Of a stretch of DNA of 64,000 bases, positions 29,227 through 63,866 are shown piece after piece. The notes under the pieces were generated by a model, which saw only the letters and a program-made list of their open reading frames with translations, searched no databases and was not told the DNA's origin. The translations under genes were made by a program, and so were the position numbers. This DNA comes from a virus: positions 1 to 64,000 of IMG/VR virus record IMGVR_UViG_3300021963_000023, one strand, 5' to 3'. Position 1 is the stretch's first letter. Every line of letters begins with the position of its first letter.

Positions 29227-29974
29227 TGCAATATGTGTTTGTTCAACTAGCGACCTATATGGTCCGTTTATTGAAGAATGGTTAAATGAACCAGTAGTTA
29301 ATAGTGATAAGTTTGTAATTGTTGATGTAACAAAAGATCACACATTTAATAAGGGGTTTACATTTACTGAACAACAATTAAAAGAGAAATTAAACTTTAC
29401 ACAAGAGGTTAGCAAATTTAATTGGTGGAATTCTTACGGTAATAGAAATATTGCTTGGTTTTATGCGCATTTAAGAATGATAAATTTTTATATGGAACAT
29501 CCAAATTATGATTATTATTGGTTTTTTGATGATGATATTAAAATGAATAATTGGAATTTATTTTTTGATTCATTTAAAAATGAGGATGCGGACTTCTTAA
29601 CATATTTTTTATTTAAAAATACTGATGTTGAAACTCAACCAGATGTTCCTATGATTGATGATAGAACATACTCTAGAACTGAGTGGTTTAAAAGATTCCC
29701 AGGTATTGATGCTAACTTACCAAAAGACATGACCAAATTATTTGGGTCGTTTTTTCCAACAACCAGATTTTCTAACAAGGCGTTAAAAACAATTATGGAT
29801 TACAATTTAAATGGTTATCATGCATATCATGAAGGAATGGTTCCAACCATATTAAATTACGAAGGCCAGAAAATGAAAACAATAATAACTCCTGAAAATA
29901 CATCAAATTACTTTGATGTTAACGAGGTTAACATTCTACATAAGAATCAAAAAATAAATTGGGAATGGTTATAA
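29219..29974 (+). CDS. Glycosyltransferase-like protein
   Basis: 251 residues. The central YYWFFDDDIKMNNW is a hydrophobic strand ending in DDD, the metal site of many GT-A enzymes. The rest is Phe/Asn-rich. It overlaps both neighbours, so the four sugar genes are one operon. Confidence 0.7.
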   Translation: MNNAICVCSTSDLYGPFIEEWLNEPVVNSDKFVIVDVTKDHTFNKGFTFTEQQLKEKLNFTQEVSKFNWWNSYGNRNIAWFYAHLRMINFYMEHPNYDYYWFFDDDIKMNNWNLFFDSFKNEDADFLTYFLFKNTDVETQPDVPMIDDRTYSRTEWFKRFPGIDANLPKDMTKLFGSFFPTTRFSNKALKTIMDYNLNGYHAYHEGMVPTILNYEGQKMKTIITPENTSNYFDVNEVNILHKNQKINWEWL

Positions 29975-31317
29975 AGAAAACGGCCATCGTAACGGCCATA
30001 TTTGACATCGGTAGAGATAAGTGGGATAATTTTACAATGTCCTATCACACGTATTTGTGGTGGATGAGAAATTTACTTTATTTAGATACCGATCTCATCA
30101 TATACACAGAAGAGAAGTTCAAGAACGATATATTAAACTATAGAAAAGAGGTAGATCCTAAATTAGAAAAAACTATTTTAATTATTCAACCATTAGAATC
30201 AATAGAAGGTTATAAAACATTCTATGAACCATTAAATGATTTAATGACTAGTGATGAGTTTAAAAAAGATGTTCAATTTGATGTGCCAGAGATGATTAAA
30301 CCATTATATAATGTTGTAATGTTTGCTAAACTTTTTTATATTTTAGATTCAGCAAAAAAGAATTTGTTTAATGCTGACTTATATGTTTGGGCGGATGCCG
30401 GTGTTATAAGAAATGATCAACCAGAAAAAAACCTAAAGTGGCCAGATATTCAAAAAATTAATGAATTAGATAATAATAAAGTTACTTTCTTTTGTCATCA
30501 CCCATATGTTAGAGTGGCTAATGATCAATATAAATTTCACGCCTTATCTCAAATGAGATACATTCAAGGCGGTGCTGTTTTTGTTCCTAAAAAATGTATA
30601 GAAGAGATTTGTGAATTATTTAAAAATACAGCATTAGATTGTATATCAAAAGGTTTTGTTGGTAGTGATGAGAAAATATTTGATTTTACCTATCTAACGA
30701 ATCCAGATAATTACAATTTAATACAATGTGGGTGGAGAGAATATATTGATTTATTCACAACCAAAAAAGATTTGGAGGTTGTTGTTGCTAGATACAATGA
30801 AGATCTTGAATGGATAAAAGAACTTAATTACAAAGTAACGGTTTATAATAAAAATGTTGACGATAACCATTTATTCTCAAATAACTTGCCAAATGTTGGT
30901 AGAGAAGGCCATACGTTTTTTAATCACATTGTTAACAATTATGATAACCTACCAGAATATCTAGTATTTTTACAAGGTAAGCCACAAGATCACTGTAATG
31001 ACATTATTAGTTTAATTAATAATTTTGACTTCAAGACAGAATTTAAACCATTAGGTGTTTTGCACCAGTTAACTATGGAATATGATGCAATCAATCAGCA
31101 AGTAGAATCATACGCTAAATCAATTGGATTTGATATTACATATCCGATTTATATGACACCTGGGGCTCAATACATTATTAGTAGAAGAATAATAAAAACC
31201 AAACCATTAGAATATTATAAAAGAATATTAGATTCACTATCGCATGAATCATATCCACAATCCGGTTTGGATGTTGAAAAAACATTATTTCAAATATATG
31301 GGGTTTATAAAAGTTAA
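29965..31317 (+). CDS. HtrL/YibB-like protein fused to a DUF3431-like domain
   Basis: 450 residues from ATG 29965, inside the end of the previous gene. The N-terminal part (TAIVTAIFDIGRDKW, then KLFYILDSAKKN and YVWADAGVI) resembles HtrL/YibB sugar-transferase-like proteins. From about 265, VVVARYNEDLEWIKEL and later YLVFLQGKPQDHC match DUF3431, itself a predicted glycosyltransferase. The fusion is likely a bifunctional enzyme. Confidence 0.75.
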   Translation: MVIKKTAIVTAIFDIGRDKWDNFTMSYHTYLWWMRNLLYLDTDLIIYTEEKFKNDILNYRKEVDPKLEKTILIIQPLESIEGYKTFYEPLNDLMTSDEFKKDVQFDVPEMIKPLYNVVMFAKLFYILDSAKKNLFNADLYVWADAGVIRNDQPEKNLKWPDIQKINELDNNKVTFFCHHPYVRVANDQYKFHALSQMRYIQGGAVFVPKKCIEEICELFKNTALDCISKGFVGSDEKIFDFTYLTNPDNYNLIQCGWREYIDLFTTKKDLEVVVARYNEDLEWIKELNYKVTVYNKNVDDNHLFSNNLPNVGREGHTFFNHIVNNYDNLPEYLVFLQGKPQDHCNDIISLINNFDFKTEFKPLGVLHQLTMEYDAINQQVESYAKSIGFDITYPIYMTPGAQYIISRRIIKTKPLEYYKRILDSLSHESYPQSGLDVEKTLFQIYGVYKS

Positions 31318-39719: not shown

Positions 39720-40116
39720 TGGTGGAGGTGACGGGACTCGAACCCGTGTCTTTCCTGTTCAACAATAAATGACTACACGTTTATTCAATTGGTTCTCAAC
39801 TGACAAATAGTAAATTAATTACAGGAAATTTACAATACTGTTTTTGACTGGATTTTCAAGAGCCGTCAAATTTGCTCCAACACTCTTCGGGTGGTATTAC
39901 ACCTTAAAGGCTTCTGTTCCTAGGTTATATGCCAGTCGACCCGATTGTAGTTTCGCCTTAGGCTACTGCTACGTTAGAAGTTGCAAGCAAGCCTGCTACT
40001 TCCATGTTGTTATAAACGTTGCCGTCTAAAATTTTCCACCATGTATTAAAGTCATAGATGAAGTCTGACTACGTGCCATTTACCCCTGATACCTGAAATC
40101 AATGCCAGGCACCCCC
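39720..40116 (-). ncRNA. ssrA: tmRNA (ssrA)
   Basis: About 397 nt. The ends form a tRNA-like domain: 5' GGGGGTG pairs with 3' CACCTCC, discriminator A, encoded CCA, and a T arm with CGGGTTCGAGTCCCG. Inside, TAGAC is followed by a GGC resume codon and a frame of 21 codons beginning GNVYNNMEVAGL and ending NVAVA-stop (about 40023 down to 39958). Known Bacteroidota tags also start with Gly, but are about half as long. It frees stalled ribosomes. A TATATTTG box lies 20 nt before the 5' end and a terminator follows. Confidence 0.9.
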
Positions 40117-48041: not shown

Positions 48042-48455
48042 TTATTTTATTTTATAAGATAAACCAATTCCTGGTGAAAAATTAGAACCCACTAAATTTC
48101 CTATTATCCATAGTTTCAAATCAGAAGATTTTAATGCGTTATACCCAATAAATGCGTTTATCTTGTTTTCGTTATTAACTGGTTGTATACCAGCCCCGAT
48201 TAAAATTTTATCGGGTTGTAACATTTTTAAAATTCCTAATTTTAAATTCGACGTGATTGAACCAGTTTTTTGGTTTGCCAAATTTGTGTCATTGTAAGGT
48301 GCTCCGACGTATAACCCCCACGTGTTTTTTAATGCGCCGACCGTAATGTAACCATCTAATCCTTTGTTTGTTGCTGATACGAACACTTCTTTTTGTCCGT
48401 AGGTCACTGCCTTCACTCCCAATAGCATCATGACCAATATAATTTTTAGTTTCAT
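48042..48455 (-). CDS. Secreted beta-barrel-like protein
   Basis: 137 residues. Signal peptide MKLKIILVMMLLGVKAVTYG, then alternating beta strands ending in GIGLSYKIK with a C-terminal aromatic/hydrophobic pattern typical of outer-membrane barrels. It resembles the gene at 48590 in size and layout (GYITVGALKN against GYIEVEAMQN). Confidence 0.7.
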   Translation of the reverse strand: MKLKIILVMMLLGVKAVTYGQKEVFVSATNKGLDGYITVGALKNTWGLYVGAPYNDTNLANQKTGSITSNLKLGILKMLQPDKILIGAGIQPVNNENKINAFIGYNALKSSDLKLWIIGNLVGSNFSPGIGLSYKIK

Positions 48456-48512
48456 CTATGTAGAGACCGTAGTCTCTGTCTATCTTAATAAATATAAAGA
48501 TAAATTTGTTTG

Positions 48513-48584
48513 TACTCGGTACGGGATTCGAACCCGTGCTACGTCCGTGAAAGGGACGCGACCTAACCACTAGTCGAACCGAGC
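48513..48584 (-). tRNA. tRNA-Glu(TTC)
   Basis: Acceptor GCTCGGT/ACCGAGT, anticodon CGTCCCTTTCACGGACG, T arm ACGGGTTCGAATCCCGT. No CCA. Confidence 0.93.
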
Positions 48585-48589
48585 AATCA

Positions 48590-49018
48590 TTAATGATTTT
48601 TATGATTACCCTTGTGATTATCAATTAAAGGAAATTTTAAACCAAACGTTTTTAATTCTTTATCAGTTGATTGAGAATAAACAAAACTAATTGGAGAATT
48701 TTTTATTGGTTTAAAATCAATACCCCACATTGCCATAGTTGAGTGATTTTGCATATAACAAGCGGATAGCATTGCCCCAACTCTATTTTTTAAAAATCCA
48801 TATCTACTTCCCACCATTGTAATATCATAACCACCAATCGTTTTTGTAAAAGATATATGGGCCGCAATGTTTTTTGTTATGTTTTGCATTGCTTCAACTT
48901 CTATATAACCTTTATTCTTTCCGTGTAGATTTAGATTACCTCCCGTAACCGAAATCATTTGTCCTTTTGCAATTGTAGAAAGAAATACAACACATAGGAT
49001 TAAAAATGAATGTTTCAT
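48590..49018 (-). CDS. Secreted beta-barrel-like protein
   Basis: 142 residues. Signal peptide MKHSFLILCVVFLSTIAKG, beta-strand pattern, His/Lys/Asn-rich end. Likely paralogue of the product of 48042. The tRNA-Glu gene lies between the two, so the messages are probably processed. It may sit in the host outer membrane. Confidence 0.7.
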   Translation of the reverse strand: MKHSFLILCVVFLSTIAKGQMISVTGGNLNLHGKNKGYIEVEAMQNITKNIAAHISFTKTIGGYDITMVGSRYGFLKNRVGAMLSACYMQNHSTMAMWGIDFKPIKNSPISFVYSQSTDKELKTFGLKFPLIDNHKGNHKNH

Positions 49019-50809: not shown

Positions 50810-50911
50810 CTAATAAGTATTCGTAAAGTCAATAAAAACTCTAATTTTTATTTTTTTGAGTAAAAAACAAGTTAAGAGTTGCCGAGACTTGCCTTGTTGA
50901 TATTTATCAAT

Positions 50912-51454
50912 ATGGCAAAAAATAATAGACTAAACGTCTCTCTATTACCTTTATTGGTACTGTTTAGCTTCTATGGGTTATATTCTTATATAGTTAGCCC
51001 AATAGAAGAAACTAGATCTGTTTATATCTCAAAAGTTGAGAACAAAATTAAGATCGGTAAATTGGCAAACAATAGGAATTTAGCTTTTGGTTGTAAGAAT
51101 ATTTTTGAAGAAATCTTACAAGAAAAGGAATTTGTTATTGTTGATAACCCAAATTCTGCAGATTTGATATTCAATGCTGAGATTTTGTATTTTGACGTTA
51201 ATCGCACAAAAAGAAATATATCAGTATTTCATTCTGACATTGAGGAAACTCTGGTTGTTATGAAAGGAACACTTACAGATAAGAATGGTAAAAAAATAAA
51301 AGAAGCCGTTGCAGAGGAATCTAGTTCAGAAATATCAACATCGACTTTAATAACTGATGAGGGAAGTGATAAAATAAATCAACAAGCACTTTCGTCTGCA
51401 ATAAAAAAAACATCGGAATCACTAATAAATAAAATATTATTTAATAAAAAGTAA
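50912..51454 (+). CDS. Membrane-anchored or exported unknown protein
   Basis: 180 residues from ATG 50912. One N-terminal hydrophobic helix (LLPLLVLFSFYGLYSYIV), then a soluble domain that includes VDNPNSADLIFNAEILYFDV, reminiscent of the substrate-binding fold of CsgG or TolB-like envelope proteins. First gene of the plus-strand envelope cluster, with TATTTATC just before the start. No firm family. Confidence 0.68.
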   Translation: MAKNNRLNVSLLPLLVLFSFYGLYSYIVSPIEETRSVYISKVENKIKIGKLANNRNLAFGCKNIFEEILQEKEFVIVDNPNSADLIFNAEILYFDVNRTKRNISVFHSDIEETLVVMKGTLTDKNGKKIKEAVAEESSSEISTSTLITDEGSDKINQQALSSAIKKTSESLINKILFNKK

Positions 51455-51455
51455 A

Positions 51456-53099
51456 ATGAAAAAAGCACTCTCTCTTTGTATTTTTTTATTAGTTGCCATG
51501 ACTTCTTTTGGTCAACTAACAATTAATCAAACAATAACACCAACAACAGGATTAAAAGTTGGTGACACATTAACAGTAAAATACACTGTTGTAAGGGGCA
51601 CCACAACCCCTCGTTATTTTTGGTTAAGATACTCATTTAATAATAAAGCATTAACAATGGTACCTAATAGTACTGTTTTTTCACAAGGTAATTCCGTACA
51701 GACATTTTATACTGGTTGGGATAACTATAAGTTTACACCAGCTGCAAATATTGCAGATACACAATTATATTTACAATATCAATCAACTCCTTGGGCATAC
51801 GCCGCTAACACAGATTGGAATGTTGGACAACTTACACTACAAAGAGCTGATGCATCAATTAATGGTGATATCGCAAGTCAAAAATATGTTTTAAAAGATC
51901 AAAACACATATAACAATATTCATAAACTTGATTTATCATATGCTATAAATGATTCGTCTACAAATATTTCTCCAATAACTAGAAATGCAACTAATATTTC
52001 ATTGTCCAATGTTCTTGGAAATACTTCACAGTTTAAGGTAAAAGTTTTGTTTCCACAAGGGTACACAATAACGGATCATAATATTCAGTTAATGAAATTA
52101 AAATCGGATGGTAGTGGTGATATAGATTGGTCACAACAACCCATTGCACAATTACCATTAGACGCTACTGGTGAAGCACTTTTCACAACACAAGTTAAAG
52201 TAGGTGATAGTATAGGATTATGGGTTAGTCCGGCGTCATCAAAAGCTTGGATGAATAACGTAATTACAGTTTCAGATGCATATAAAGCATTCTTAGGCCA
52301 TTCACAAACAGATATTAGTGGTACAGCCAACTTTTTTACATATCCAGTTTTAGAAAAGAAAATTGGTAATGTTACTAAAAACGATGCGATTTTTAACGAA
52401 AGTGACTCATATAATTTATTTGCACATGTCATGGGACAAAACGTATCTGCCAATGCATTTATACCAACTCAAACAGCAACGTCTTGGAGATTTCATAGTG
52501 GGTTATTAAATCAAAGTTGGTTAGATGGTATTCCAAAGTATAAGGTAACTATTGATACACCAATTAAAGAGGTTTATGCAGTATTTGCGTGGGGTGGTGA
52601 TTTAGATTGGTCACATTCATCTGATCCTGCGGTAATTGCTAGTAGAATATCATCAGGACAATTCACAAACTCAATTAATAATACTAAATCAACAATGTCT
52701 ACACAATCAATGGCATATAAAACCGAGGCATTGGAAACAGCTAAATTAAGTGTTGTATCTACATTAGAAAATGGTAAAGTTGTGCTAACAACGAATCTAA
52801 CGAAAGAGGGGTTAGCCGGATTAGAAGTTATAATGAATTATGATAATTCAAAATTAACTTTAGATAATATCATATTTGATTCTGGATCAAACATCACCAA
52901 TTTTTCAACTAAAGAAGAAGGTAGATTAACATTTGGTTCTATTGATCAATTAAAAACAGCTAGAATAAAAGTTGGTACACCATATAAATTAATATTTACA
53001 CCAAAAGATACCTTAACAAATACCGCTGGGTTATTCTACTTTGTTTTGTCTGATGCTGTTGATGGTTTCGGTAACAAAATAAATTTAATTGTAGAATAA
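51456..53099 (+). CDS. Secreted cohesin/dockerin-like surface protein
   Basis: 547 residues. Signal peptide MKKALSLCIFLLVAMTSFGQ. The N-terminal third is beta-rich (Thr, Asn). A dockerin-like element NVTKNDAIFNESDSYNLFAH lies near 310. The C-terminus (about 430-545) resembles a cohesin fold (LAGLEVIMNYDNSKLTLDNI). The next gene ends with the same two modules. Probably exported to the cell surface; may bind carbohydrate or partner proteins. Confidence 0.78.
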   Translation: MKKALSLCIFLLVAMTSFGQLTINQTITPTTGLKVGDTLTVKYTVVRGTTTPRYFWLRYSFNNKALTMVPNSTVFSQGNSVQTFYTGWDNYKFTPAANIADTQLYLQYQSTPWAYAANTDWNVGQLTLQRADASINGDIASQKYVLKDQNTYNNIHKLDLSYAINDSSTNISPITRNATNISLSNVLGNTSQFKVKVLFPQGYTITDHNIQLMKLKSDGSGDIDWSQQPIAQLPLDATGEALFTTQVKVGDSIGLWVSPASSKAWMNNVITVSDAYKAFLGHSQTDISGTANFFTYPVLEKKIGNVTKNDAIFNESDSYNLFAHVMGQNVSANAFIPTQTATSWRFHSGLLNQSWLDGIPKYKVTIDTPIKEVYAVFAWGGDLDWSHSSDPAVIASRISSGQFTNSINNTKSTMSTQSMAYKTEALETAKLSVVSTLENGKVVLTTNLTKEGLAGLEVIMNYDNSKLTLDNIIFDSGSNITNFSTKEEGRLTFGSIDQLKTARIKVGTPYKLIFTPKDTLTNTAGLFYFVLSDAVDGFGNKINLIVE

Positions 53100-53100
53100 T

Positions 53101-55386
53101 ATGAAGAAACTATTAGTAATATGTTTTTTACTAATTTCATTTTTAGGGTTCGGACAGAGCGTATCTGCTCCGGACTCTAAATCGTTTACACCATCCACAA
53201 ACGGACAAGATGGAAGTGGGTTTGTGTTAAGTGGATTTACCGCAACATCTACCTTACTGGCATCCATCAGTTTAATCAACCCATCAACAAATACTACATT
53301 CTATTTAACCACTACAACAGGTTTAACCGCCGCAAGTGGATTTACTTTAAGTGGTAACAAAACTCGTTTGGTTGTAACGGGAACTATGGCAGATATTAAT
53401 ACTGCATTGGCATCCTTAAAAGTGAATACCGGTTCGGTGGTGGGCAATGTTCAATTATCGGTAGCGGCAACTGTAAACCCTGTTGGTTATTTTTATAATG
53501 GTGTCAATGGACACTTTTATAGACCTATATCAAGTGGAGCAACTTATACAAACGCAAGAACATTATCGTCTGAACAAACATTCAAAGGCCAGCAAGGGTA
53601 TTTGGTAACAATAACATCAGCTTCCGAAGACGCTTTTATATTCGCTAATGTTCCACAATCTAGTATTTGGTTTGCATTAACAGATGAAGCATCCGAAGGT
53701 CAATGGAGAATTGATGCGGGGCCCGAAGCGGGAACTTTAATCAAAACATCAAACGGACAGACTGCTGGAAACATACAAGGACAGTACAATAACTGGGCGG
53801 GTGGTGAACCAAATAATAGTGGTAATGAAGATTATGCAGTAACTAAATGGGGTGGTGGAAACCAATGGAACGATTTACCCAATAATTTTAGTTGTGCTTA
53901 TGTAGTTGAATTTGGAACTTGGACTAACCCCGATGATGCAACCTTTACTGAATTTTATACTAATAGCGTAACTCACTCAAACGGAGAAGTATTAAGAGCC
54001 TCATTCAATATCGATTTTGGTAGTAATGTAGATGAAACCAAATTTTCAGCAAAAGGATATACATATACAAATAATACTTGGAATGTAGTAAACGGAACCG
54101 CTAAACAATTAAGTGGTTTGGGTAAAGTTGATTTGACAAGTTTATTGGATACCGCAAAAGTTTCAAATGGAGGGGTTAAAGCAAACACAACATCAGGACA
54201 AGTTGAATGGTGTGTGATTTATCAATATGATGCAACTAACCAAAGATATAGAATTGGGATAGATAGTAGAGAAGTAAATGGAATCCTATCAGACCCCACT
54301 AAAATTAGTAGTTTACAATTATTTGATTTATGGAACGGGCCTGTAACATTTAATTCTTATGACCAAAATGGTTGGACAGAAGTTTATATTTATACTCAAA
54401 CTCAATTCAATTTTAGTGGTTCATCTTTTGCGTCTAATATAAGAGCAGGAAATGGATTTTATGGATTACAAGCGGAGTTTACATTTACCGAAATTACCGC
54501 ATATAAACCACATGGAATTGAATTAACACATTCAAATCAAACCGAATTAAACACATTGTATAATAGTATAGTTGGTGTATCGGATGTGTATTTAGCATTT
54601 AAGGAATTAGCGGATGGTGGATTATTTGGAAATCAAAGTGGGATGGGATTAACAAATGGTATCCAGTATTTGAACGCTGATGTTGATGGAAATGGTATAT
54701 TCAATGAATCAGACACATACAAATTATTGCAACATCTTACAGGTGTTCAACCACTTTCACAATCTACAGCATTAACATATTTGATGAAGTTATATAACAA
54801 ATCGGATTATGATGCGGTAACAACATCAAATTGGGGAACTAAATTTAATTCAACTCGTAATTTAATTCCTTTTACTTTGGGTGGATTAAATAATGCATAC
54901 AATATAAGTGTAACTTGGTTAGGTGATGTAAACCTTTCGCATTCTGCACAACAAAGTGTAAGTGGTGTTAGTAGTAATTCTGTTAAGAGTATGGGATTAA
55001 TGAGTAATTCTATTACAAACGAGGTAAATGTTATACTAATGGGCGAAATTGTGGGTAATAAAATTATAAAGACATTATCAGTAGATCCATTACAACAGGA
55101 ATTAGTTGGAATTCAATTTCAGTTAAACTATGATAACACTAAATTAAAATTTGAAAAAGTCGAATTTAACACAAAGGGTAACCCCACAAATTTTGGAACG
55201 GATAAGGGTAATTTCATTAATGTTGGTTCTTTACTAACGAGTGGGGATGTATTAGATAAAACAACCGAATATAAAGTTGTTTTTTCACCTATAAATAATG
55301 TAACTGATATGTTAGGGCTAACATCAATATCAACAACTGATGCGGTTAATAAAAGTGGGAAACAATTAAAAATAAAAATAAACTAA
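53101..55386 (+). CDS. Secreted C-type-lectin / dockerin / cohesin-like protein
   Basis: 761 residues. Signal peptide (LLVICFLLISFLGFGQ), a cadherin-like repeat (about 25-125), and a C-type lectin domain (about 125-280): RTLSSEQTFKGQQGYLVTIT, later NNWAGGEPNNSGNEDYA and WNDLP. It ends with a dockerin-like calcium loop DVDGNGIFNESDTYKLLQ near 525 and a cohesin-like C-terminus. Such proteins display on Bacteroidota surfaces; here it is phage-encoded. Calcium-dependent glycan binding is likely. Confidence 0.82.
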   Translation: MKKLLVICFLLISFLGFGQSVSAPDSKSFTPSTNGQDGSGFVLSGFTATSTLLASISLINPSTNTTFYLTTTTGLTAASGFTLSGNKTRLVVTGTMADINTALASLKVNTGSVVGNVQLSVAATVNPVGYFYNGVNGHFYRPISSGATYTNARTLSSEQTFKGQQGYLVTITSASEDAFIFANVPQSSIWFALTDEASEGQWRIDAGPEAGTLIKTSNGQTAGNIQGQYNNWAGGEPNNSGNEDYAVTKWGGGNQWNDLPNNFSCAYVVEFGTWTNPDDATFTEFYTNSVTHSNGEVLRASFNIDFGSNVDETKFSAKGYTYTNNTWNVVNGTAKQLSGLGKVDLTSLLDTAKVSNGGVKANTTSGQVEWCVIYQYDATNQRYRIGIDSREVNGILSDPTKISSLQLFDLWNGPVTFNSYDQNGWTEVYIYTQTQFNFSGSSFASNIRAGNGFYGLQAEFTFTEITAYKPHGIELTHSNQTELNTLYNSIVGVSDVYLAFKELADGGLFGNQSGMGLTNGIQYLNADVDGNGIFNESDTYKLLQHLTGVQPLSQSTALTYLMKLYNKSDYDAVTTSNWGTKFNSTRNLIPFTLGGLNNAYNISVTWLGDVNLSHSAQQSVSGVSSNSVKSMGLMSNSITNEVNVILMGEIVGNKIIKTLSVDPLQQELVGIQFQLNYDNTKLKFEKVEFNTKGNPTNFGTDKGNFINVGSLLTSGDVLDKTTEYKVVFSPINNVTDMLGLTSISTTDAVNKSGKQLKIKIN

Positions 55387-56276
55387 TGAAAAAGATATTA
55401 TTAATTATATTGCTAATTTCAACAACACTTGTTTCAACCGCACAAACACAAACACCCGATACATTACAACTATCACCAAAAGAATTATTTGGAGAGAGTG
55501 ATGATTGGAATGATGTGGGTATATTACAATCTTATGTGGATTTTTCAAAAGATGTTCTTTCATCCTCAAACCTATCGGTTGGTATAATCGGAAAGCAAGT
55601 ATCTACAACTCTTAATTTAGGATATAGTAAGTCATCTAAAAATGGACAATGGGGTCACTCATTTGCAGCATCAATAAATCCTATATGGAATTATTATGGT
55701 GTGGGATATGGCTTTTCAAAAAATACCGAAAAGAGAACAACAACAATACAAACATTCTATTCAACCGATTTTGACTTCCAAAAGGATATTAACATTTCAT
55801 TTATAGATGTATTCAGAACTAAAAAGTGGGGAACTTTTGGATATAGTTTAACGGCATCTAAAACATATTGGGATTCATATCAAGGGGAATGGGAAGGAAA
55901 ATATACTATTGATGTAAATGGCAATTTTTTAGATTTGATTTATCCGCAAATGCCGGCATCATCACAAACCACTTATAAAGGAATGTTGATGTACACATAT
56001 ACACTTAAAACAAAGAGAGTTAATATATCTCCGCAAATATTTGCTATGAGTGATGTGTATGTAGATTTCAAAGATGGTGAATCTGATTTTGGTTATAAAA
56101 ATGATTTTAATTTGGACTTATATTATGGTACATCTATGGATTGGAAAATAACTAAAAGGTTCATATTAAACACAAATGTCAGATATAACACAACTTGGGA
56201 TAAGTTGTCAGAATCCGTAGGATATAAAAAGAGTAACCCATTAATGTTTATGATAGGAACAAACTTTCAATTTTAA
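55386..56276 (+). CDS. Outer-membrane beta-barrel protein
   Basis: 296 residues. Signal peptide MKKILLIILLISTTLVSTAQ, then alternating strands with aromatic girdle residues; the end ITKRFILNTNVRYNTTW ... FMIGTNFQF has the terminal Phe typical of BAM substrates. Its C-terminal strands match those of the protein at 60341 (ITKRFGFTINYKL). It starts on the last base of the previous gene. Host-range, exclusion or secretion role unknown. Confidence 0.78.
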   Translation: MKKILLIILLISTTLVSTAQTQTPDTLQLSPKELFGESDDWNDVGILQSYVDFSKDVLSSSNLSVGIIGKQVSTTLNLGYSKSSKNGQWGHSFAASINPIWNYYGVGYGFSKNTEKRTTTIQTFYSTDFDFQKDINISFIDVFRTKKWGTFGYSLTASKTYWDSYQGEWEGKYTIDVNGNFLDLIYPQMPASSQTTYKGMLMYTYTLKTKRVNISPQIFAMSDVYVDFKDGESDFGYKNDFNLDLYYGTSMDWKITKRFILNTNVRYNTTWDKLSESVGYKKSNPLMFMIGTNFQF

Positions 56277-56279
56277 GAT

Positions 56280-56621
56280 ATGAAAAGATTATTATATATG
56301 TTTCTTTTTTTACTATGGGGATGTACTAAACCGGAGTTACCCACACCAACACCATCTGTTCAGAAAATTTTCAGTGTAAGTGAAAGTAGCGTTACAGATG
56401 GGCAATCTATTCATTTTGACTTACCATCGTCAGGTACCTATATATTAACACTTATTGATGTTGAGAGCGGACAAGTTGTTAGTCGAGAAAAATTTATTGG
56501 CGTTGCCGGGGAAAATATCAAAAAAATATATACCAAATCTATAGTATCGAAGTATTTATATTTGACACTTGCTTCGGCAGATAATGCCCAAATAAGTAAA
56601 ACAAAATTAACGCTAAACTAA
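56280..56621 (+). CDS. Predicted lipoprotein
   Basis: 113 residues. Signal LYMFLFLLWGC with lipobox Cys15. The rest resembles a type A T9SS sorting-like beta domain (GTYILTLIDVESGQVVSREK, then ENIKKIYTKSI). The next gene encodes a similar product. Confidence 0.76.
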   Translation: MKRLLYMFLFLLWGCTKPELPTPTPSVQKIFSVSESSVTDGQSIHFDLPSSGTYILTLIDVESGQVVSREKFIGVAGENIKKIYTKSIVSKYLYLTLASADNAQISKTKLTLN

Positions 56622-56622
56622 A

Positions 56623-56997
56623 ATGAAAAAAACATTAACATTTGGATTATTAATACTTGGCTTAATTGGTTGCACTAAAGACGATCTTTTTATCAACCAA
56701 GAGATTAACCAAATTAAACCAGAGTTACAAATAAAGAATTCGGTTGGCCTTAAACTAGAGACAGCGTTTGTAACCGGAGAGGTTGCTATGAACGTGAAAA
56801 GTGAAGTTGGACAATCGGTAACCATAAAGATTTTTGATATTTCCAATAGAGTGGTATCAAAAGAGACCATGACCGTTAAATCTGGTGATAATATTTTAAA
56901 GGTATATACATCAGCTTTACCGTCATCAGCATATAGAATTGGTTTATATGACTCTAAGGGTAATCAATTGGGAATTACAGATTTTAATAAATTATAA
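56623..56997 (+). CDS. Predicted lipoprotein (paralogue of 56280)
   Basis: 124 residues. Signal TFGLLILGLIGC with lipobox Cys17. The VTIKIFDISNRVVSKETMTV and DNILKVYTSALPSSAYRIGL strands follow the layout of the preceding lipoprotein and of T9SS C-terminal domains. Likely a surface or periplasmic partner of the barrel at 55386. Confidence 0.76.
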   Translation: MKKTLTFGLLILGLIGCTKDDLFINQEINQIKPELQIKNSVGLKLETAFVTGEVAMNVKSEVGQSVTIKIFDISNRVVSKETMTVKSGDNILKVYTSALPSSAYRIGLYDSKGNQLGITDFNKL

Positions 56998-57012
56998 ATA
57001 AAAATACATAAA

Positions 57013-57327
57013 ATGTCAGAAGAATTAGAACAAAATAACGATGGTACATGGACTGGGTTAAAGAAAACCATTGTCGGTGTAATAACAACAGCAGTAATGG
57101 GCTTAGGAACTTGGGGAGTAACTCAGTTAACAGGTGGTGATGAGCCGGCTCCAGTACAACAATCGGCTCCTGTAATTAACATTACAAACTCAAATCAACA
57201 ATCTCAATCAGCAGGTGGTACAACTAAAATTATCGAAAGAGAAAGAGTTGTGGAAAAACCAGCAGCGGCACCAAAACCTAAGAAAAAAGAAGGTGATGAG
57301 TTTAAAGAAGAAGCACCTAAGTGGTAA
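57013..57327 (+). CDS. Small membrane protein with proline-rich tail
   Basis: 104 residues. One membrane helix (IVGVITTAVMGLGTWGVTQL) near 20-40, then Gln/Ser-rich and Lys/Pro/Glu-rich regions (APKPKKKEGDEFKEEAPKW). No signal peptidase site. Holin- or spanin-like in size. Confidence 0.68.
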   Translation: MSEELEQNNDGTWTGLKKTIVGVITTAVMGLGTWGVTQLTGGDEPAPVQQSAPVINITNSNQQSQSAGGTTKIIERERVVEKPAAAPKPKKKEGDEFKEEAPKW

Positions 57328-57328
57328 T

Positions 57329-57502
57329 ATGGAACAGGGATTAAGTTTTATAGTGGTAGTTGCTTTGTGTAATATAGCTATGTTTGTATTTAATTCACCA
57401 ATTATGTTTTTAACATTTTTTATGGCGGGTGGTTGTTATTTGGTAATAAGAGGAAGAAAAAAAGGTTGGAAATTACCTAAAAACATAAAGGAGACACATT
57501 AA
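57329..57502 (+). CDS. Small membrane protein (57 aa)
   Basis: From ATG 57329, two bases after the previous stop: LSFIVVVALCNIAMFVFNSP and IMFLTFFMAGGCYLVI are membrane helices, then RGRKKGWKLPKN. The frame is open upstream, but this start fits the gene spacing. Possible holin. Confidence 0.6.
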   Translation: MEQGLSFIVVVALCNIAMFVFNSPIMFLTFFMAGGCYLVIRGRKKGWKLPKNIKETH

Positions 57503-57528
57503 TTAATTAATTTAAAAAAAAATAAAGT

Positions 57529-58137
57529 ATGAATAATCAACAACCAAGCGGTTTTAAAGAGTTATTAAACTCAATGATGAATAGAAGGTGGTTAATGACC
57601 TTAATTGTATTAATCACATTTATGTGCACTACATTTGGAATTTTAATTTCTATCCACGCAGAGGCAACTGTTGGACAGGAATGGAAAGAACTTATGTTAT
57701 TGTTATTAGGTGCTTTCATTGGTTCTTATGGTAAAATCATTGATTATTGGTTTAGTGATACCGATAAGGATAAGATGCTAGTGCAAAAGATGGATGAGGA
57801 AGATGGTGTTAGTTTAAGTAATACTGCAAATATGAAAGATTCTGAACCTAAACAATACTCACCTATTATTCCAGAAGCATTTCAAACAGATATCGAAAAG
57901 GTAAATGATACATTTAAACAAGTACCAACAACACAATCAAGGACCGGTATTGAAGTTGATGAAGATGGTGATGGGACTATGGATGGTATTGACTTCGATG
58001 GTGATGGTAAGATCGATGTATATTTCGCACACAGACAATGTCAACACGTTTGGGGAGATTCAGATGGGGATGGCGACCTAGAATGTCTGATATGTGGTAA
58101 AATAAAAGATCCTGAACCTGGCGAGGAAGAAGGATAA
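57529..58137 (+). CDS. Membrane protein with EF-hand-like calcium loops
   Basis: 202 residues. Two membrane helices (WLMTLIVLITFMCTTFGILI, then ELMLLLLGAFIGSYGKII) within the first 75 residues. The C-terminal part has repeated D-x-D-x-D-G loops (DEDGDGTMDG, DFDGDGKID, DSDGDGDLE) and a CxxC pair, a likely calcium/zinc-binding domain. It resembles dockerin-type loops of the secreted proteins upstream. Function unknown. Confidence 0.72.
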   Translation: MNNQQPSGFKELLNSMMNRRWLMTLIVLITFMCTTFGILISIHAEATVGQEWKELMLLLLGAFIGSYGKIIDYWFSDTDKDKMLVQKMDEEDGVSLSNTANMKDSEPKQYSPIIPEAFQTDIEKVNDTFKQVPTTQSRTGIEVDEDGDGTMDGIDFDGDGKIDVYFAHRQCQHVWGDSDGDGDLECLICGKIKDPEPGEEEG

Positions 58138-58167
58138 TAAAAATAATACGCGTAAAAATTTTAAAAT

Positions 58168-58455
58168 ATGGCAAGTTTTTTAAAAGAATTATTTAATGAC
58201 AATAACACAATTAACGAAAAATCAGTAGTTGGTTTTGCATCATTTGTTTGTATGGTTATAGCACTAGTTGTTGATTTAGTAACCGGGTACATGGGTAAAC
58301 CATTAGTAATAAACGAGTTCATTTTTGATGGCTTTTTAGTTATCACTCTTGGTTCTTTTGGTATCGCATCTGTTGATAAATGGATCAACAACAAAGGTGG
58401 TAAAAAAGAAGAAAGTGATAAAAAAGACGACGCACAAATTGAAATGGAGGGATAA
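58168..58455 (+). CDS. Small membrane protein, holin-like
   Basis: 95 residues. Two hydrophobic helices (GFASFVCMVIALVVDLVTGY and FDGFLVITLGSFGIASV) with an acidic/basic tail (KKEESDKKDDAQIEMEG). The topology fits a class II holin, and the endolysin in this window lacks a signal peptide. No homologue verified. Confidence 0.6.
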   Translation: MASFLKELFNDNNTINEKSVVGFASFVCMVIALVVDLVTGYMGKPLVINEFIFDGFLVITLGSFGIASVDKWINNKGGKKEESDKKDDAQIEMEG

Positions 58456-58473
58456 TAACTAAAAACAAAAAAA

Positions 58474-58701
58474 ATGACAAACTTTATAAATAAGGCTAAA
58501 AATATGATTTTTAGTTTAACACTTGTTCTTACAGGTACCTGGATACTATTTGCGCTTTCTTTCCAATTGTATGCAGTGTTTTTACAAGTAAGTGGACAAG
58601 AAGAAAAAATGACCAGAATATCTAATGAGATATCTTGGAGAGTTGATGGTACGTTTAAAAATAACCCAGATAATATCTGGTACGAAGGCCCTTCTAAGTA
58701 A
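58474..58701 (+). CDS. Small membrane protein
   Basis: 75 residues with one long hydrophobic segment (MIFSLTLVLTGTWILFALSF) and a polar C-terminus. It sits 18 nt after the previous small membrane gene and 21 nt before the CsgG-like gene. Unknown; a spanin or accessory. Confidence 0.6.
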   Translation: MTNFINKAKNMIFSLTLVLTGTWILFALSFQLYAVFLQVSGQEEKMTRISNEISWRVDGTFKNNPDNIWYEGPSK

Positions 58702-58722
58702 TTTAGGTTAAAAAATATAGAC

Positions 58723-59454
58723 ATGATACAAAAGATAAAAGCATTTGTAATTGGATTATTATTATGCACCTTTGCACAAGATATAATCGCACAAACAATC
58801 GGTAAAACAAAAACAGAAGATTACAAGGCCGATTTTGAAAAAAAGAAAGACATATCGGCTTACTTAGATTATGATGGCCCTCAAATACCAATTCAAATAT
58901 TAAAAGCAGGTATATCAGATGAAATATACGAAATGTATCCCGAATTAAAAGAAAAACGTGTTGGTTTAGGTGTTGCCAATATTTCTATGGAATACTTGGA
59001 GAATTTAAATAGATTTATTTTTACTGAGGATAAAACAGAAATAAAGAACCGTATGGTTAAACAGTTTCAAGCGTCACAATCAGGTATTTCAGAAGATAAA
59101 TTAGATGGCCGAGGTAAAATTAGATTAGCAAAATATTTTGTAACAATTGAGTGTTACGATTATTCAATATCTGAAGACGAAACGATTAATCTAAAAGACG
59201 GTATAAAAGATAATATGGTAACTCGTATAGGTCTTCAGGTTAGATTTACCGATGCGGAAACTGGAGCTATGTTTGGGGCGTCTGGATTAGGTGAAGCGAC
59301 AACAAGAAGAGAATTAACTCTTTTATCTGATGCAACGATCGACCCAATTAAATTCAATCAATCAACAATTTCAATTGCAACTAAAAAGGCCTTAGACATC
59401 GCTTGTGCAAATATTCTTGACAGAATGATTAAAAAGGGCGTTTTTACAAAATAA
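58723..59454 (+). CDS. CsgG-like exported lipoprotein-family protein
   Basis: 243 residues. Signal peptide (IKAFVIGLLLCTFAQDIIAQ), then GVANISMEYL and the RIGLQVRFTDAETGAMFGAS strand, with LTLLSDATIDPIKFNQ later: the pattern of CsgG, the curli export pore. CsgG forms an outer-membrane ring through which adhesins leave. The lipobox is not evident, so this is a soluble or membrane-associated relative. In this cluster it might export the lectin/dockerin-like proteins. Confidence 0.7.
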   Translation: MIQKIKAFVIGLLLCTFAQDIIAQTIGKTKTEDYKADFEKKKDISAYLDYDGPQIPIQILKAGISDEIYEMYPELKEKRVGLGVANISMEYLENLNRFIFTEDKTEIKNRMVKQFQASQSGISEDKLDGRGKIRLAKYFVTIECYDYSISEDETINLKDGIKDNMVTRIGLQVRFTDAETGAMFGASGLGEATTRRELTLLSDATIDPIKFNQSTISIATKKALDIACANILDRMIKKGVFTK

Positions 59455-59475
59455 TAATTATTTAAATAGTAGTAT

Positions 59476-59501
59476 AAAGGGGTTTAATTGCCCCTTTTTT
59501 T
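59476..59501 (+). terminator. Rho-independent terminator
   Basis: AAAGGGG/CCCCTTT hairpin with T7, after the CsgG-like gene and directly before a TATTTATA motif. Confidence 0.85.
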
Positions 59502-59502
59502 A

Positions 59503-59510
59503 TATTTATA
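59503..59510 (+). promoter_or_regulatory. TATTTATA motif (candidate late promoter)
   Basis: Immediately follows a terminator and lies 15 nt before ATG 59526. Confidence 0.48.
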
Positions 59511-59525
59511 ATAAAACGATAAAGT

Positions 59526-60341
59526 ATGAAAACGTTATTAATTACATTATTATTCATTCCAACTATTATGTTAGGACAGGTTTCATCTTGGAGAAGTAAT
59601 CCTCCTCAACCACAAAGAACTGAAACACCCAGAGTCCAACCAACAACCCCACAAAGAAATGATGTGAGTAGATGGAGAACACAAACAGAACCAATTAGAC
59701 CTGGTCAAGCTGTTCCACAACAACCATTGGTTAGAAGATGGAGAAGTAATGTGGCAAACCCATATGGCTACTATTGGGGAGATTGGGGTTGGTATCAACC
59801 GTTTCCTTACATTTGGTATGACGATTTTGGATGGAGACAAAGAAGTGTAGTTAGAATATATGAAAACGGTAAAAAAGATACAATTAGAAAAGAAACAGTT
59901 TACACATCTTTTGGTATTGGACATACAAATAATAAACAAGCCTCTTTTTGGGGCGCGGTAGGAGGTAAAAAAAGTTATTTTATTTTAGATTATACAATGT
60001 CATATGATATTGATCAAAATCAATATTATCCATACGGTACAATTAATGAGGTAGATTTCACACTAAGTAAAAACGATTTTATTAAACAAGGTGCTTTATA
60101 TCTTGGCGGAGGTAAAAGATTTGGTAAGTTAGGCGTTCATGGTATGATTGGATTTGGTAATGAGAATGTTAGATATCAAGGTAGAGACGCTCTTGGTGGT
60201 ATATCATTTCCAAAATCAAATTCAAATTTCACAACATTTAAAATTGGTATTATTAGAGACTTCAAATTTTTTACAATAAAATTAGATAGAGATCCAATAA
60301 GAAATTATAACCAAGTAAGTGTTGGTTTCCATAATAAGTAA
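59526..60341 (+). CDS. Outer-membrane-type protein with Trp-Arg repeats
   Basis: 271 residues. Signal peptide MKTLLITLLFIPTIMLGQ. A Pro/Gln-rich region carries three W-R repeats (SSWRSN, SRWRTQ, RRWRSN) and a Trp/Tyr-rich stretch (YGYYWGDWGWYQPFPY). The C-terminal half has barrel-like strands (LGGGKRFGKLGVHGMIGFG). Exported surface protein. It overlaps the next gene by one base. Confidence 0.74.
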   Translation: MKTLLITLLFIPTIMLGQVSSWRSNPPQPQRTETPRVQPTTPQRNDVSRWRTQTEPIRPGQAVPQQPLVRRWRSNVANPYGYYWGDWGWYQPFPYIWYDDFGWRQRSVVRIYENGKKDTIRKETVYTSFGIGHTNNKQASFWGAVGGKKSYFILDYTMSYDIDQNQYYPYGTINEVDFTLSKNDFIKQGALYLGGGKRFGKLGVHGMIGFGNENVRYQGRDALGGISFPKSNSNFTTFKIGIIRDFKFFTIKLDRDPIRNYNQVSVGFHNK

Positions 60342-61756
60342 TGAAAAAAATATTATTTTTTATTTTTATTTTTATTTCGATAAAGTCATTTGGCCAAACC
60401 TATACACAAACATTTATTGATAAATGTAGTGGGGAAAAAAAGGTTGCTACAACAACAATGATGAATGGTTATGCAACAGTATCTTTTTATAATCAAGTAA
60501 GGACATTTTCACCATTAGAGGTTCAGTCAGGGGTTGTACAAGCTTGGTTATTAACAACTAAGACCACTTATGAAGCAATTACATGTCCAGTAATAAATAA
60601 CCCCATTGTACAACAAACGGTAACAAATGCTGCGGCACAAACGGCAGCAAATGCAGCATCATCAGCAGCTAGTAGTGCAGCTGCGGCGGCTAGTAGTTCA
60701 GCAAGTTCTGCAGCTAGCAGTTCTGCAAGTAGTGCTGCAGCAAGTTCAGCGGCATCAACACCGCCACCTATAACACCACCACCAGCTAGTAGTAGTTCAA
60801 CGCCACCACCGGCTAGTAGTTCTTCTTCATCAAGTAGTTCTTCTTCATCAAGTAGTTCTTCATCTTCTAGTTCATCATCCTCATCAGAATCTAAAACAGA
60901 AACAAAAACAGAGGCTAAAACAGAATCTAAGTCTGAAAGTAAAAGTGAGTCAAAATCAGAAAGTAAAAGCGAGGAAAAAAAGGAAGAGTCTAAATCAGAA
61001 ACTAAGGAAGAAAAGAAAGAAGAATCTAAATCAGAAGAAAAGAAGGAGGAAGAAAAGAAAGAGGAAAAAAAAGAAGAGAAGAAAAAAGAAAAAGCTGTTG
61101 CATCAAACCCTATGTTGTTATCCTCCGATTTGTCCGTTATTGAATCACCAGATGGTAGATGGTTACAATCGGCAACAGTTGGTGTATCAAAATCTTCATT
61201 AATGGGTGATGAAAGTTATTCTGCCAACGCGGTAATCATGAGTGATTTAAAAACGTTTATTGTCAGTGGTGGATATACTAAAATGGATTTTTCTAGTGGT
61301 AAGTTAAAAGCAATACATTCATATTCAACAGCCTTTGCATATCTAAATGGGGTATACATGAATTTGATGGGGTATACATACATTAAGCCAACAACAAAAT
61401 ATGGTGTGTTTGGATATAACGTTGGTTTAATAAATTTACTTATTAAGAACTCTACAGGTGGATATGATCATAATATGTCATCATCTGTTGTTGGATTTTG
61501 GACAAAACCATATCAGTACAATAAAAAATTAAGTATTTCACCACAGGTATTTACTATGTTCGCGCCATTATCTTGGAATAGTGTTACGGGCGGATCAACA
61601 GTAAACAGAAGTGTTGGGTTTTTATTAGGTTCTTCTTTTGATTATAAAATAACAAAAAGATTTGGATTCACAATAAACTATAAATTAAGCGGTAACACAT
61701 CAGCAGGATCACCATTTTTAAGTAACTTTTTAATTGGATCAAGGATGATTTTATAA
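60341..61756 (+). CDS. Secreted protein with Ser and Lys/Glu low-complexity regions and C-terminal barrel
   Basis: 471 residues. Signal peptide (ILFFIFIFISIKSFGQ), a small N-terminal domain, Ala/Ser and poly-Ser regions (about 105-180), then a long Lys/Glu/Ser region (about 180-250). The C-terminal 215 residues form a barrel-like domain with an ITKRFGFTINYKL terminal motif shared with the gene at 55386. The low-complexity part would be a spacer between two domains. A terminator follows. Confidence 0.76.
   Translation: MKKILFFIFIFISIKSFGQTYTQTFIDKCSGEKKVATTTMMNGYATVSFYNQVRTFSPLEVQSGVVQAWLLTTKTTYEAITCPVINNPIVQQTVTNAAAQTAANAASSAASSAAAAASSSASSAASSSASSAAASSAASTPPPITPPPASSSSTPPPASSSSSSSSSSSSSSSSSSSSSSSSESKTETKTEAKTESKSESKSESKSESKSEEKKEESKSETKEEKKEESKSEEKKEEEKKEEKKEEKKKEKAVASNPMLLSSDLSVIESPDGRWLQSATVGVSKSSLMGDESYSANAVIMSDLKTFIVSGGYTKMDFSSGKLKAIHSYSTAFAYLNGVYMNLMGYTYIKPTTKYGVFGYNVGLINLLIKNSTGGYDHNMSSSVVGFWTKPYQYNKKLSISPQVFTMFAPLSWNSVTGGSTVNRSVGFLLGSSFDYKITKRFGFTINYKLSGNTSAGSPFLSNFLIGSRMIL
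60600..61090 (+). repeat. Low-complexity coding region
   Basis: Simple-sequence runs of Ser codons (TCA, TCT, AGT), then of Lys/Glu codons (AAA, GAA). Prone to length variation. Confidence 0.8.
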
Positions 61757-61842: not shown

Positions 61843-62196
61843 TTATTTTTTATTTTTTGTCAAGCTTTTATACAAACTTATTATTTCAGAACATTTTTCA
61901 TAATCTTCTATATCTTCAAAATATGGGATTACATGATCAATAAGAATATCGGGATCTTTTTTAGATAATTGAAATTCTGTTTTCCAGTCCATTATCTCAC
62001 CTTTACTCAATAATAAGCTAGCATTAACAACAAATTTAATTTCTTTTTTTCTTGTTGTTATTAAATGTTTAAACGAATCAACAACACCACCATAAATTAA
62101 TGGTTTGTTTTTATCTAAAAAATCTTCAAAAGAGTTATATTTTCCAGTTACGTGAACATCAAGTGTTTCTGGTTCGTTGGTGTTAGTTGTTCTCAT
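61843..62196 (-). CDS. Unknown acidic protein
   Basis: 117 residues, Lys/Glu/Asp-rich and helical, with LDVHVTGKYNSFEDFLDKNK near the start and DIEDYEKCSEIISLYKSL near the end. The latter resembles the tail of the gene at 31766. It overlaps the RNA ligase gene by 14 nt. Unknown. Confidence 0.72.
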   Translation of the reverse strand: MRTTNTNEPETLDVHVTGKYNSFEDFLDKNKPLIYGGVVDSFKHLITTRKKEIKFVVNASLLLSKGEIMDWKTEFQLSKKDPDILIDHVIPYFEDIEDYEKCSEIISLYKSLTKNKK

Positions 62197-63430
62197 TTTT
62201 AAATGGTTTTGAGTATGTTGGGTATAATAATTTCCAAATAGTTTGTTTAGGGTTTATCGAATCTAACATGTTAAATAAAATATTAGAGTGCCTATATTGT
62301 TTTGCTCTTAAAGCAAAGTCTTTTCTACTTAAATTTCGACCATTTAAATTTTCAAATATTTCTCTATAATCTTTTTCTATGTTTTCAAATCTTACTGTTA
62401 AATCACGGGCGGTTTCTTTTACCCAATTATTAAATTCATCCGGCACCTTTTCAAGTAATTCATCGAATGGTTTATTGTCTTTTAGGTATTCCCAAATATC
62501 TCTATTCGAGATGTTTGTTAGGATTCTGTGTAGGCGAATGTATTCGTCACCTTTTATTTTCATTCGAAAGCCATTCTTAAATCTGATTACATACCCTTCT
62601 TTATCGTTACTAATCTCTTCTTTAAGTAAATCATATCCTTCTCCCCATGTTTTATATAGGGTAACAACATTAATGTTTAAATTTTTTATTAGATTTTTTA
62701 ATCTAATATCTTCATTATTATCGTTGTGTATATTAACCTCATCACCAGTTTTGGTGTGGATCATACCAAGTAAAATTAAATCTTCAAAATCATAGTTACA
62801 AACTATTCTGTTTTCTGGGTAAATAATTTCAAACAAATATGTGTAATCTTTTGCCAATCGATTGTAGTCATATTTCTCTAATAATTCTCGACCTTTAATT
62901 GCTTGTGGCGAAGTAAATGAACCACGTGTTGCTAATATCCATTCACCCTTTGTTTTTGGTGTTGGGTCATAATAAGTGTTATCAAAATCAGGTAAATTGT
63001 TTGGATCAAAGAATCTTTCCATACCCGTTTCATAATTGTTATTAAACCATATGTTATATCTTCTTTCATCAGTTAATTCTTCTTCATAATAAAAAAGAAT
63101 ACCTAATGAACCATCCATTTTTTCATATACCTCAAAATTTTCATTTGGTAAATCCTCAGGTTTATGTTCCTCATAATTGAAGAATTTCTTGAATGGTCTT
63201 GCAACAATTTCACCTTTAGTGTTTGTAACTAGCCCACGACATTGTATGGTAATATCATCCCATAGTCTCTCATATTGAACTCTTGGAGAATAATTCCAAA
63301 TAGTTAAATCAAGAGTCGGGTGAGTTTGTTTATGCAACAAACCATCTTTGTAATATTTTTCTAATGTTGCTAACACAGTTCTTGAAAGGATTTTTTGATG
63401 GAGGATAAAGAGTCTTGGTAAACGATTCAA
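62183..63430 (-). CDS. RNA ligase, T4 Rnl1-like
   Basis: 415 residues, near the 374 of T4 RNA ligase 1. The nucleotidyl-transferase motif I KMDGS places the catalytic Lys at 104; CRGLVTN lies 40 residues before it; WILATRGSF and YVIRFKNGFRMKIK correspond to motifs III/IIIa and IV/V. It should join RNA 5'-phosphate and 3'-OH ends using ATP. It lies next to a kinase gene, as in T4-like tRNA repair, where Rnl1 restores tRNA cut by host anticodon nucleases. Confidence 0.9.
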   Translation of the reverse strand: MNRLPRLFILHQKILSRTVLATLEKYYKDGLLHKQTHPTLDLTIWNYSPRVQYERLWDDITIQCRGLVTNTKGEIVARPFKKFFNYEEHKPEDLPNENFEVYEKMDGSLGILFYYEEELTDERRYNIWFNNNYETGMERFFDPNNLPDFDNTYYDPTPKTKGEWILATRGSFTSPQAIKGRELLEKYDYNRLAKDYTYLFEIIYPENRIVCNYDFEDLILLGMIHTKTGDEVNIHNDNNEDIRLKNLIKNLNINVVTLYKTWGEGYDLLKEEISNDKEGYVIRFKNGFRMKIKGDEYIRLHRILTNISNRDIWEYLKDNKPFDELLEKVPDEFNNWVKETARDLTVRFENIEKDYREIFENLNGRNLSRKDFALRAKQYRHSNILFNMLDSINPKQTIWKLLYPTYSKPFKNENN

Positions 63431-63443
63431 TAAACTTACTCAT

Positions 63444-63866
63444 TTACAATTTGATTTGAAACCTATTTTTCATTTGTTTGAGTTTGTCTTCCGGAACGTT
63501 GTGTATGTTTTTACTATCGTGCCTGTTTTCAACAATTAAAGTGTGAATTCGATATTTGTATCTTTCTGCCATTTCAAAATACGGTTCCATTTCCCACTCT
63601 TCAGTAAAAGTATTGGCAATAACAATTTTTGAAAATTCTAATTTCATTCTATCTGCACATATTTGTTGACAATTAATATGTGCCTCTTTAATTTTACTAG
63701 CATCAAAGTGGTAAACACCCTTATCATCAGTAAAATAATTGTCTGCAGAAATAATATCTGGTTTAGTCCCCTGATTTGAATGAAGTATTACTTCTGCCAA
63801 TGTCGTTTTACCGGCGCCTGGCAGTCCTCTTAGTAATATTACATCACCGACCCATTCTTTTTCCAT
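63444..63866 (-). CDS. Polynucleotide-kinase-like P-loop protein
   Basis: 140 residues. Walker A GLPGAGKT at 14-21, then SADNYF and ICADRMKLEFSKIVIANTFT. This is the short AAA_33 or Pnkp-kinase-like type. It lacks the phosphatase half of T4 Pnkp. It probably phosphorylates a 5' end for the ligase 14 nt downstream. A similar P-loop protein could instead be a small-metabolite kinase. Confidence 0.78.
   Translation of the reverse strand: MEKEWVGDVILLRGLPGAGKTTLAEVILHSNQGTKPDIISADNYFTDDKGVYHFDASKIKEAHINCQQICADRMKLEFSKIVIANTFTEEWEMEPYFEMAERYKYRIHTLIVENRHDSKNIHNVPEDKLKQMKNRFQIKL

Follow-up and report, generated by a model that had tools for sequence, protein, structure and literature searches.

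Phage-borne genes of the CsgG family have been described in the CsgG/CsgF clusters of pelagimyophages and of phage Melnitz, for which roles in lysis and in 'sibling capture' were proposed (PMC7029224; PMC9004378). Two further phage systems act at the bacterial surface: Cor/Llp superinfection-exclusion cassettes, in which a phage lipoprotein encoded beside membrane and outer-membrane proteins blocks receptors on cells and debris (PMC13164509; PMC9586334), and phage-encoded cargo of the type IX secretion system (T9SS), reported for Cryophage as a unique occurrence (PMC7468147). Here we analysed a 64,000-nucleotide stretch of viral DNA (the window; bases 1-64000 of G000, an IMG/VR virus record of 251,149 bp) in which positions 50912-61756 encode a cluster with points of likeness to these systems. 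As in the pelagimyophage and Melnitz clusters, a phage-borne CsgG-family gene lies within an envelope gene cluster; however, in HTVC008M/Melnitz-type clusters CsgG is clearly recognisable (37-40% identity to the E. coli protein) and has CsgF and curlin-repeat neighbours, whereas CsgG similarity in the present module is borderline and curlin is lacking, and lectin/cohesin adhesins, predicted barrels and endolysin linkage are particular to the latter. Like the module, Cryophage encodes proteins that bear T9SS type A sorting domains, in one case together with PA14 (PMC7468147), but there the genes are three and variable, whereas the sorting-domain adhesin of the module belongs to a conserved operon (76/81 loci of one clade). 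No sequence relation to Cor/Llp was found, and the module is larger, strongly conserved, apparently late and lectin-based. It recalls spanins in combining an inner-membrane protein with a periplasmic tail and lipoproteins, near the holin and endolysin genes of relatives, but it has no match to spanin families and adds adhesins, barrels and a CsgG-like protein. No description of the module was found in the library of papers searched.

The gene cluster and its virus

G000 is a T4-like Bacteroidota phage with a T4-type major capsid gene at 79,785-81,272, 21 tRNAs and one tmRNA. Its host is probably a freshwater Bacteroidota, in keeping with the presence of the isolated Flavobacterium phage immuto among the relatives of the cluster, the GC content of 27-39% in 2-kb steps, and the signal peptides of the exported families, which end in AQ/SQ/GQ. 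The cluster DNA had no close match in phage records by megablast, and SERBAR and TraTl had none by tblastn. The phage-encoded tmRNA (39720-40116, tag GNVYNNMEVAGLLATSNVAVA) lies near the cluster of 21 tRNAs.

The cluster is filled by 13 co-oriented genes, listed here with two promoter motifs and the endolysin gene of the window:

17510-18352, + strand: endolysin, PG-binding plus GH19 (PF01471, PF00182; PHROG endolysin E 3e-68), with a promoter motif at 17468
50901-50908, + strand: TATTTAT(C) promoter motif at the start of the first transcription unit, 4 nt before 50912 (26/39 relatives have it ahead of their first module gene, 3.5 expected)
50912-51454, + strand: TraTl, membrane-anchored periplasmic protein, TraT/YajG-like, core gene (weak Pfam matches in relatives)
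51456-53099, + strand: COH1, exported cohesin-like surface protein, core gene (signal peptide ending SFGQ; Cohesin E 0.011)
53101-55386, + strand: COH2, exported adhesin that combines a C-type lectin with a dockerin-like motif and a cohesin-like domain (PF00059 25.8 bits, cut-off 22.6; Cohesin E 0.0027)
55386-56276, + strand: BAR15, exported protein predicted to be an outer-membrane barrel, paralogous to the barrel of SERBAR (hhalign 96.8%, E 2.7e-10)
56280-56621, + strand: lipoprotein 1, C-TKPEL (lipobox WGC; 29/32 full loci of clade A encode a member of the lipoprotein family)
56623-56997, + strand: lipoprotein 2, C-TKDDL, with a DUF3244 / sorting-tail-like domain (lipobox; DUF3244 E 7.5e-4 and Por_Secre_tail E 0.011, both below cut-off)
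57013-57327, + strand: TMpro, single inner-membrane segment and Pro/Gln-rich periplasmic tail, core gene (alignment; 74/80 full loci)
57529-58137, + strand: membrane protein with a D-rich, calcium-binding-like tail (29/32 clade A and 25/48 clade B full loci)
58168-58455, + strand: TM5, 2-TM holin-sized protein (TM5 family directly adjoins the endolysin in relatives)
58474-58701, + strand: small 1-TM protein (ORF plus membrane segment; resembles a small TM family of relatives)
58723-59454, + strand: CSGG, exported CsgG-domain-like protein, core gene and the most conserved (immuto gp017 52% identity; CsgG similarity borderline)
59503-59510, + strand: TATTTATA promoter motif at the start of the second transcription unit, BAR9-SERBAR (before the BAR9 family in 27/46 vs 5.3 expected)
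59526-60341, + strand: BAR9, small exported protein predicted to be a barrel (has a signal peptide; specific to clade A, 13/32 full loci)
60341-61756, + strand: SERBAR, signal peptide, 2-Cys N-domain, variable Ala/Ser/Lys-Glu linker and C-terminal predicted barrel, core gene (alignment; cross-clade orthology)

The original prediction that nearly every gene of the cluster encodes an exported, lipid-anchored or membrane protein was borne out: by a simple hydrophobicity/lipobox rule, a signal-like sequence, lipoprotein signal or N-terminal membrane segment is present in 12/13 cluster genes vs 8/115 other ORFs of the window and the adjoining 58 kb (first 122 kb; Fisher p 6e-11). The remaining gene, at 57013, has a weaker TM segment; the two lipoproteins begin at 56280 and 56623, and an antisense ORF within the cluster (58161-58769) looks spurious. 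Barrels had also been predicted, and two or three of the proteins do resemble outer-membrane barrels, although with a beta-amphipathic signal of modest size (z 2.0 to 2.6); no Pfam barrel family matched any cluster protein. Two more small exported barrel-like proteins are encoded on the - strand of the tRNA region (48042-49018), the first with a promoter motif upstream. Beside the cluster, 62183-63866 encodes a T4-type RNA ligase and a kinase-like ORF (the kinase recognised by sequence only), a possible tRNA/RNA repair pair. Elsewhere in the window, 27078-31317 holds genes that may serve glycan modification, encoding a GlcNAc glycosyltransferase as well as HtrL_YibB/DUF3431 proteins.

A core gene set in two phage clades

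Using the CsgG-like protein as query we found 478 related stretches in IMG/VR, and a second IMG/VR scan seeded with the immuto homologue gave 113 stretches, which may overlap the first set. ORFs were clustered around 162 loci, with family counts restricted to the 80 loci having enough flank (32 clade A, 48 clade B). This identified a five-gene core of TraTl, cohesin/lectin adhesin, TMpro, CSGG and SERBAR, with members in 74 to 80 of the 80 full loci (cohesin/lectin family and TraTl 80/80 each, SERBAR 79/80, TMpro 74/80). The core is held by two deep phage clades that include immuto and whose CsgG-like proteins are about 51-59% identical. SERBAR is orthologous between the clades, with an N-domain in which two Cys are conserved (hhalign 99.7%, E 7.6e-27) and with a shared C-terminal barrel-like domain (hhalign 95%), and the alignment shows that the Ala/Ser/Lys-Glu linker joining them varies greatly in length; the N-domain was not seen on phage proteins beyond SERBAR-type genes. 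TraTl relatives have weak Pfam matches to Lipoprotein_16 (17/30) and to TraT (8/30); the TraT match does not reach the PF05818 cut-off (16.4 vs 31 bits; best member E 4.5e-4), and Lipoprotein_16 matched more members. We have high confidence in the existence of the module as a conserved phage gene set.

A profile of the CsgG-like family matched 2 contigs in a set of 84,980 species genomes of bacteria and archaea, and 1/299 genomes in a Flavobacterium genus set. The family is thus almost only viral, and for this reason the module is unlike a recently captured host adhesin operon. An exported family of ~150 aa, G17, is encoded next to the module in 44 loci of clade B, 34 of them with the promoter motif (for example L118:1131-1586 and L128:5885-6346).

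The CsgG-like protein and the route of the adhesins

The designation CsgG-like holds only at the level of borderline similarity. The window protein is without a Pfam match, weak CsgG matches occur in 2/44 family members (best 2.3e-4), and the cut-off is passed marginally in 1/25 relative records (21.0 vs 20.8 bits). Comparison with a wider CsgG set by hhalign gave P 0.017 for the C-terminal half only, the alignment to E. coli CsgG alone was uninformative, and profile searches of PDB sequences yielded nothing meaningful. Where the protein aligns with the first pore hairpin it carries twice the charge of E. coli CsgG (charge fraction 0.32 vs 0.15); in the second hairpin segment the two are comparable (0.21 vs 0.20). 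The signal of the window CSGG ends A-Q without a lipobox Cys; a lipid anchor is absent from the window's clade, and only some clade B members have a lipobox. Curlin repeats (PF07012) gave 0 matches in G000 and neither CsgE nor CsgF was recognised. Work of CSGG in the envelope is supported, whereas its identity as a curli-type pore is not.

The C-type lectin noted in COH2 was confirmed, with PF00059 over cut-off (25.8 and 29.6 bits vs 22.6). It is the only Lectin_C in the entire record, and tail-fibre lectin mimicry was rejected on this count. Cohesin matches reach 5.9e-9 in relatives, but those in the window fall below cut-off (E 0.011 and 0.0027; 16-18 vs 24.1 bits); likewise, a dockerin-like motif is present in 53101-55386 and its orthologues, but the best Pfam Dockerin_1 match has E 0.066. 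A cohesin/dockerin system was not found, in that the two domains were not both over cut-off. Lectin_C, Cohesin, PA14, LCCL and GLEYA domains all occur within the cohesin/lectin family, varying from member to member.

In the original prediction the cluster was a self-contained secretion and display system, its CsgG-like pore or barrels exporting the adhesins. That CsgG-like protein and COH always co-occur, and that one relative marginally exceeds the CsgG cut-off, agrees with a CsgG-like outer-membrane pore; the weak, C-terminal similarity, the charged segment in place of the first hairpin, the lipid anchor missing in the window's clade, the lack of curlin, CsgE and CsgF, and the sorting domains of relatives' adhesins all speak against it, and we consider it improbable. 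TIGR04183, the T9SS type A sorting domain, was over cut-off in 9/10 sister-family adhesins tested, one of the ten being a clade A protein, and with a profile made here an adhesin with this domain at its C-terminus was found in 76/81 clade B loci. These domains point to the host's own type IX system, and together with the weak case for a CsgG pore they make self-containment doubtful. The window adhesins have no T9SS sorting domain by our profile or NCBIfam. The sorting-tail-like domain of lipoprotein 2 is related to the T9SS sorting domain but sub-threshold, and the C-TKDD start of this protein resembles the surface-export signal known for Bacteroidota lipoproteins.

Promoters, endolysin linkage and possible function

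Upstream of genes in the first 122 kb, TATTTATA is enriched (24 vs 1.3 expected). On the opposite strand this motif reads TATAAATA, the T4 late promoter. TATTTAT lies a few to ~40 bases before both module starts, the endolysin gene and six genes that, from their proximity to the capsid gene and their sequence character, we read as encoding the large terminase subunit, portal, prohead protease, scaffold, tail sheath and tube. It also precedes several fibre-like genes and is absent before replication-type genes at 163-168 kb. Among relatives it precedes the endolysin in 12/20 and internal TM genes hardly ever, and in clade B it is also found before nrdB in 16/20, so that it is possibly not purely late there. 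To judge from these motifs, the module is apparently expressed late, with the structural and endolysin genes. The pseudolysogenic benefit originally considered is disfavoured, and superinfection exclusion in an early form weakened, by promoters in common with structural genes and by the extreme rarity of the CsgG-like gene in bacterial genomes. PADLOC identified no defence system (one weak match), and Cor-like proteins had no match in Pfam, PHROGs or PADLOC.

Similar protein starts, roughly M..I.(I/L)TE.QL..L(V/I)...(L/I).E, occur at 4358, 4817, 5615, 6572, 15567, 16082, 26216 and 33764 (ORF ends towards the start codons) on otherwise different proteins, and TATTTAT precedes 6/12 ORFs with the common M..I.(I/L)TE start. 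This start recalls the capsid-targeting sequences of T4 that are cut by the prohead protease, and the proteins may be internal head proteins.

A promoter motif in common with structural genes would also suit virion components such as fibre, whisker or head-decoration proteins, and the major capsid gene is 18-24 kb downstream in long records of the window's clade. Yet nearly all members of each exported family have signal peptides, lipoproteins and T9SS sorting domains are present, and in other clades the module is far from the capsid gene, which leaves a virion role about as improbable as the CsgG pore, if not slightly more so. The idea of a tail-fibre region was dropped, the capsid gene being near only in the window's clade and the proteins carrying signal peptides.

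Glycan-binding and cohesin-type domains and T9SS sorting would be expected of adhesins that stick infected cells to particles or to other cells and thereby bring progeny into contact with fresh hosts, as in the 'sibling capture' proposed for pelagimyophage CsgG/CsgF clusters (PMC7029224). This account is rather unlikely, although less so than the two just considered: a promoter motif in common with lysis and structural genes leaves little time for it, Melnitz, another CsgG phage, showed no clumping (PMC9004378), and a curlin-type polymer gene is absent from the record.

In 67 loci no more than ~10 kb separates a gene of the endolysin family from the CsgG-like gene, and it may be placed inside the operon, upstream, divergent or downstream. 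On the CsgG tree its position class changed 22 times, yet it is near (~10 kb) in 43/71 scorable rows, and it is <10 kb from the module in 14/27 long records having an endolysin. The immediate neighbours of 68 endolysins include the TM5 family 20 times and a Pfam holin 12 times, and none of the endolysins has a signal peptide (0/68). Most long records of the clade to which the window belongs, however, have the endolysin 36-45 kb away; we take the link to be genuine in the group at large but indirect in the window itself. An exported DNA/RNA non-specific endonuclease (PF01223) is encoded at 22196-22798, and its relatives adjoin the module in several phages including immuto.

This linkage makes outer-membrane disruption, in which envelope-spanning proteins, together with holin and endolysin, would break or open the outer membrane of the Bacteroidota host at lysis and so replace spanins functionally, nearly as likely as the receptor shielding that we favour below, although by itself it is a possibility we hold with reserve. 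The promoter motif common to structural genes, the near-universal presence of the module in these phages, and the topology of TMpro which, with the lipoproteins, recalls split spanins are all consistent with disruption, and when the lytic proteins of phages were surveyed, the only spanins to turn up in Bacteroidetes phages were unimolecular (PMC12596118). Against it are the distance of the endolysin in the window's clade, the failure of i-spanin and o-spanin families to match in Pfam or PHROGs, and the lectin/cohesin/PA14-type adhesins, which are obligate (80/80) and not obviously needed for lysis.

Our preferred reading, put forward tentatively, is that the cluster is a phage-specific, late-expressed trans-envelope module. 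With a little less assurance, we propose that its glycan-binding proteins serve to cover the surface sugars of the infected cell and its debris, blocking the binding of progeny or rival phages. Such shielding is favoured because the adhesin part is obligate while its sugar-binding domains vary, and by analogy with the Cor/Llp cassettes (PMC13164509). TMpro, periplasmic CSGG and TraTl, and the outer-membrane barrel with its long flexible linker would form a scaffold across the envelope, and the cohesin/lectin proteins (in relatives also PA14 or LCCL) would end up on the cell surface, in the sister clade presumably via the host type IX system. At the end of infection the displayed proteins would occupy the surface sugars of cell and debris, and progeny and rival phages would then not be bound to either. 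Adhesion or aggregation, virion parts and CsgG-pore secretion follow shielding and disruption in likelihood. It is also conceivable, but doubtful, that a dedicated, late-assembling trans-envelope machine (CSGG, the long-linker barrel of SERBAR, the inner-membrane anchor and TraTl) working with holin and endolysin, its adhesins displayed via the host type IX system, constitutes an exit or surface-takeover apparatus of a kind not yet described. The conserved core, export signals, promoter motif, endolysin linkage and T9SS domains of one clade are established as features of sequence; confidence in the function of the module overall is moderate to low.

The module represents an envelope-directed conserved phage operon that apparently acts as infection ends. 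Its presence in hundreds of contigs of Bacteroidota phages and in one cultured phage makes the question of how Bacteroidota phages alter or break the outer membrane and the surface testable. It also ties phage biology to type IX secretion, and it suggests for phage CsgG-like genes, so far puzzling in marine phages, a possible place among late surface or lysis functions. These phages seem to remodel the host surface just before lysis.
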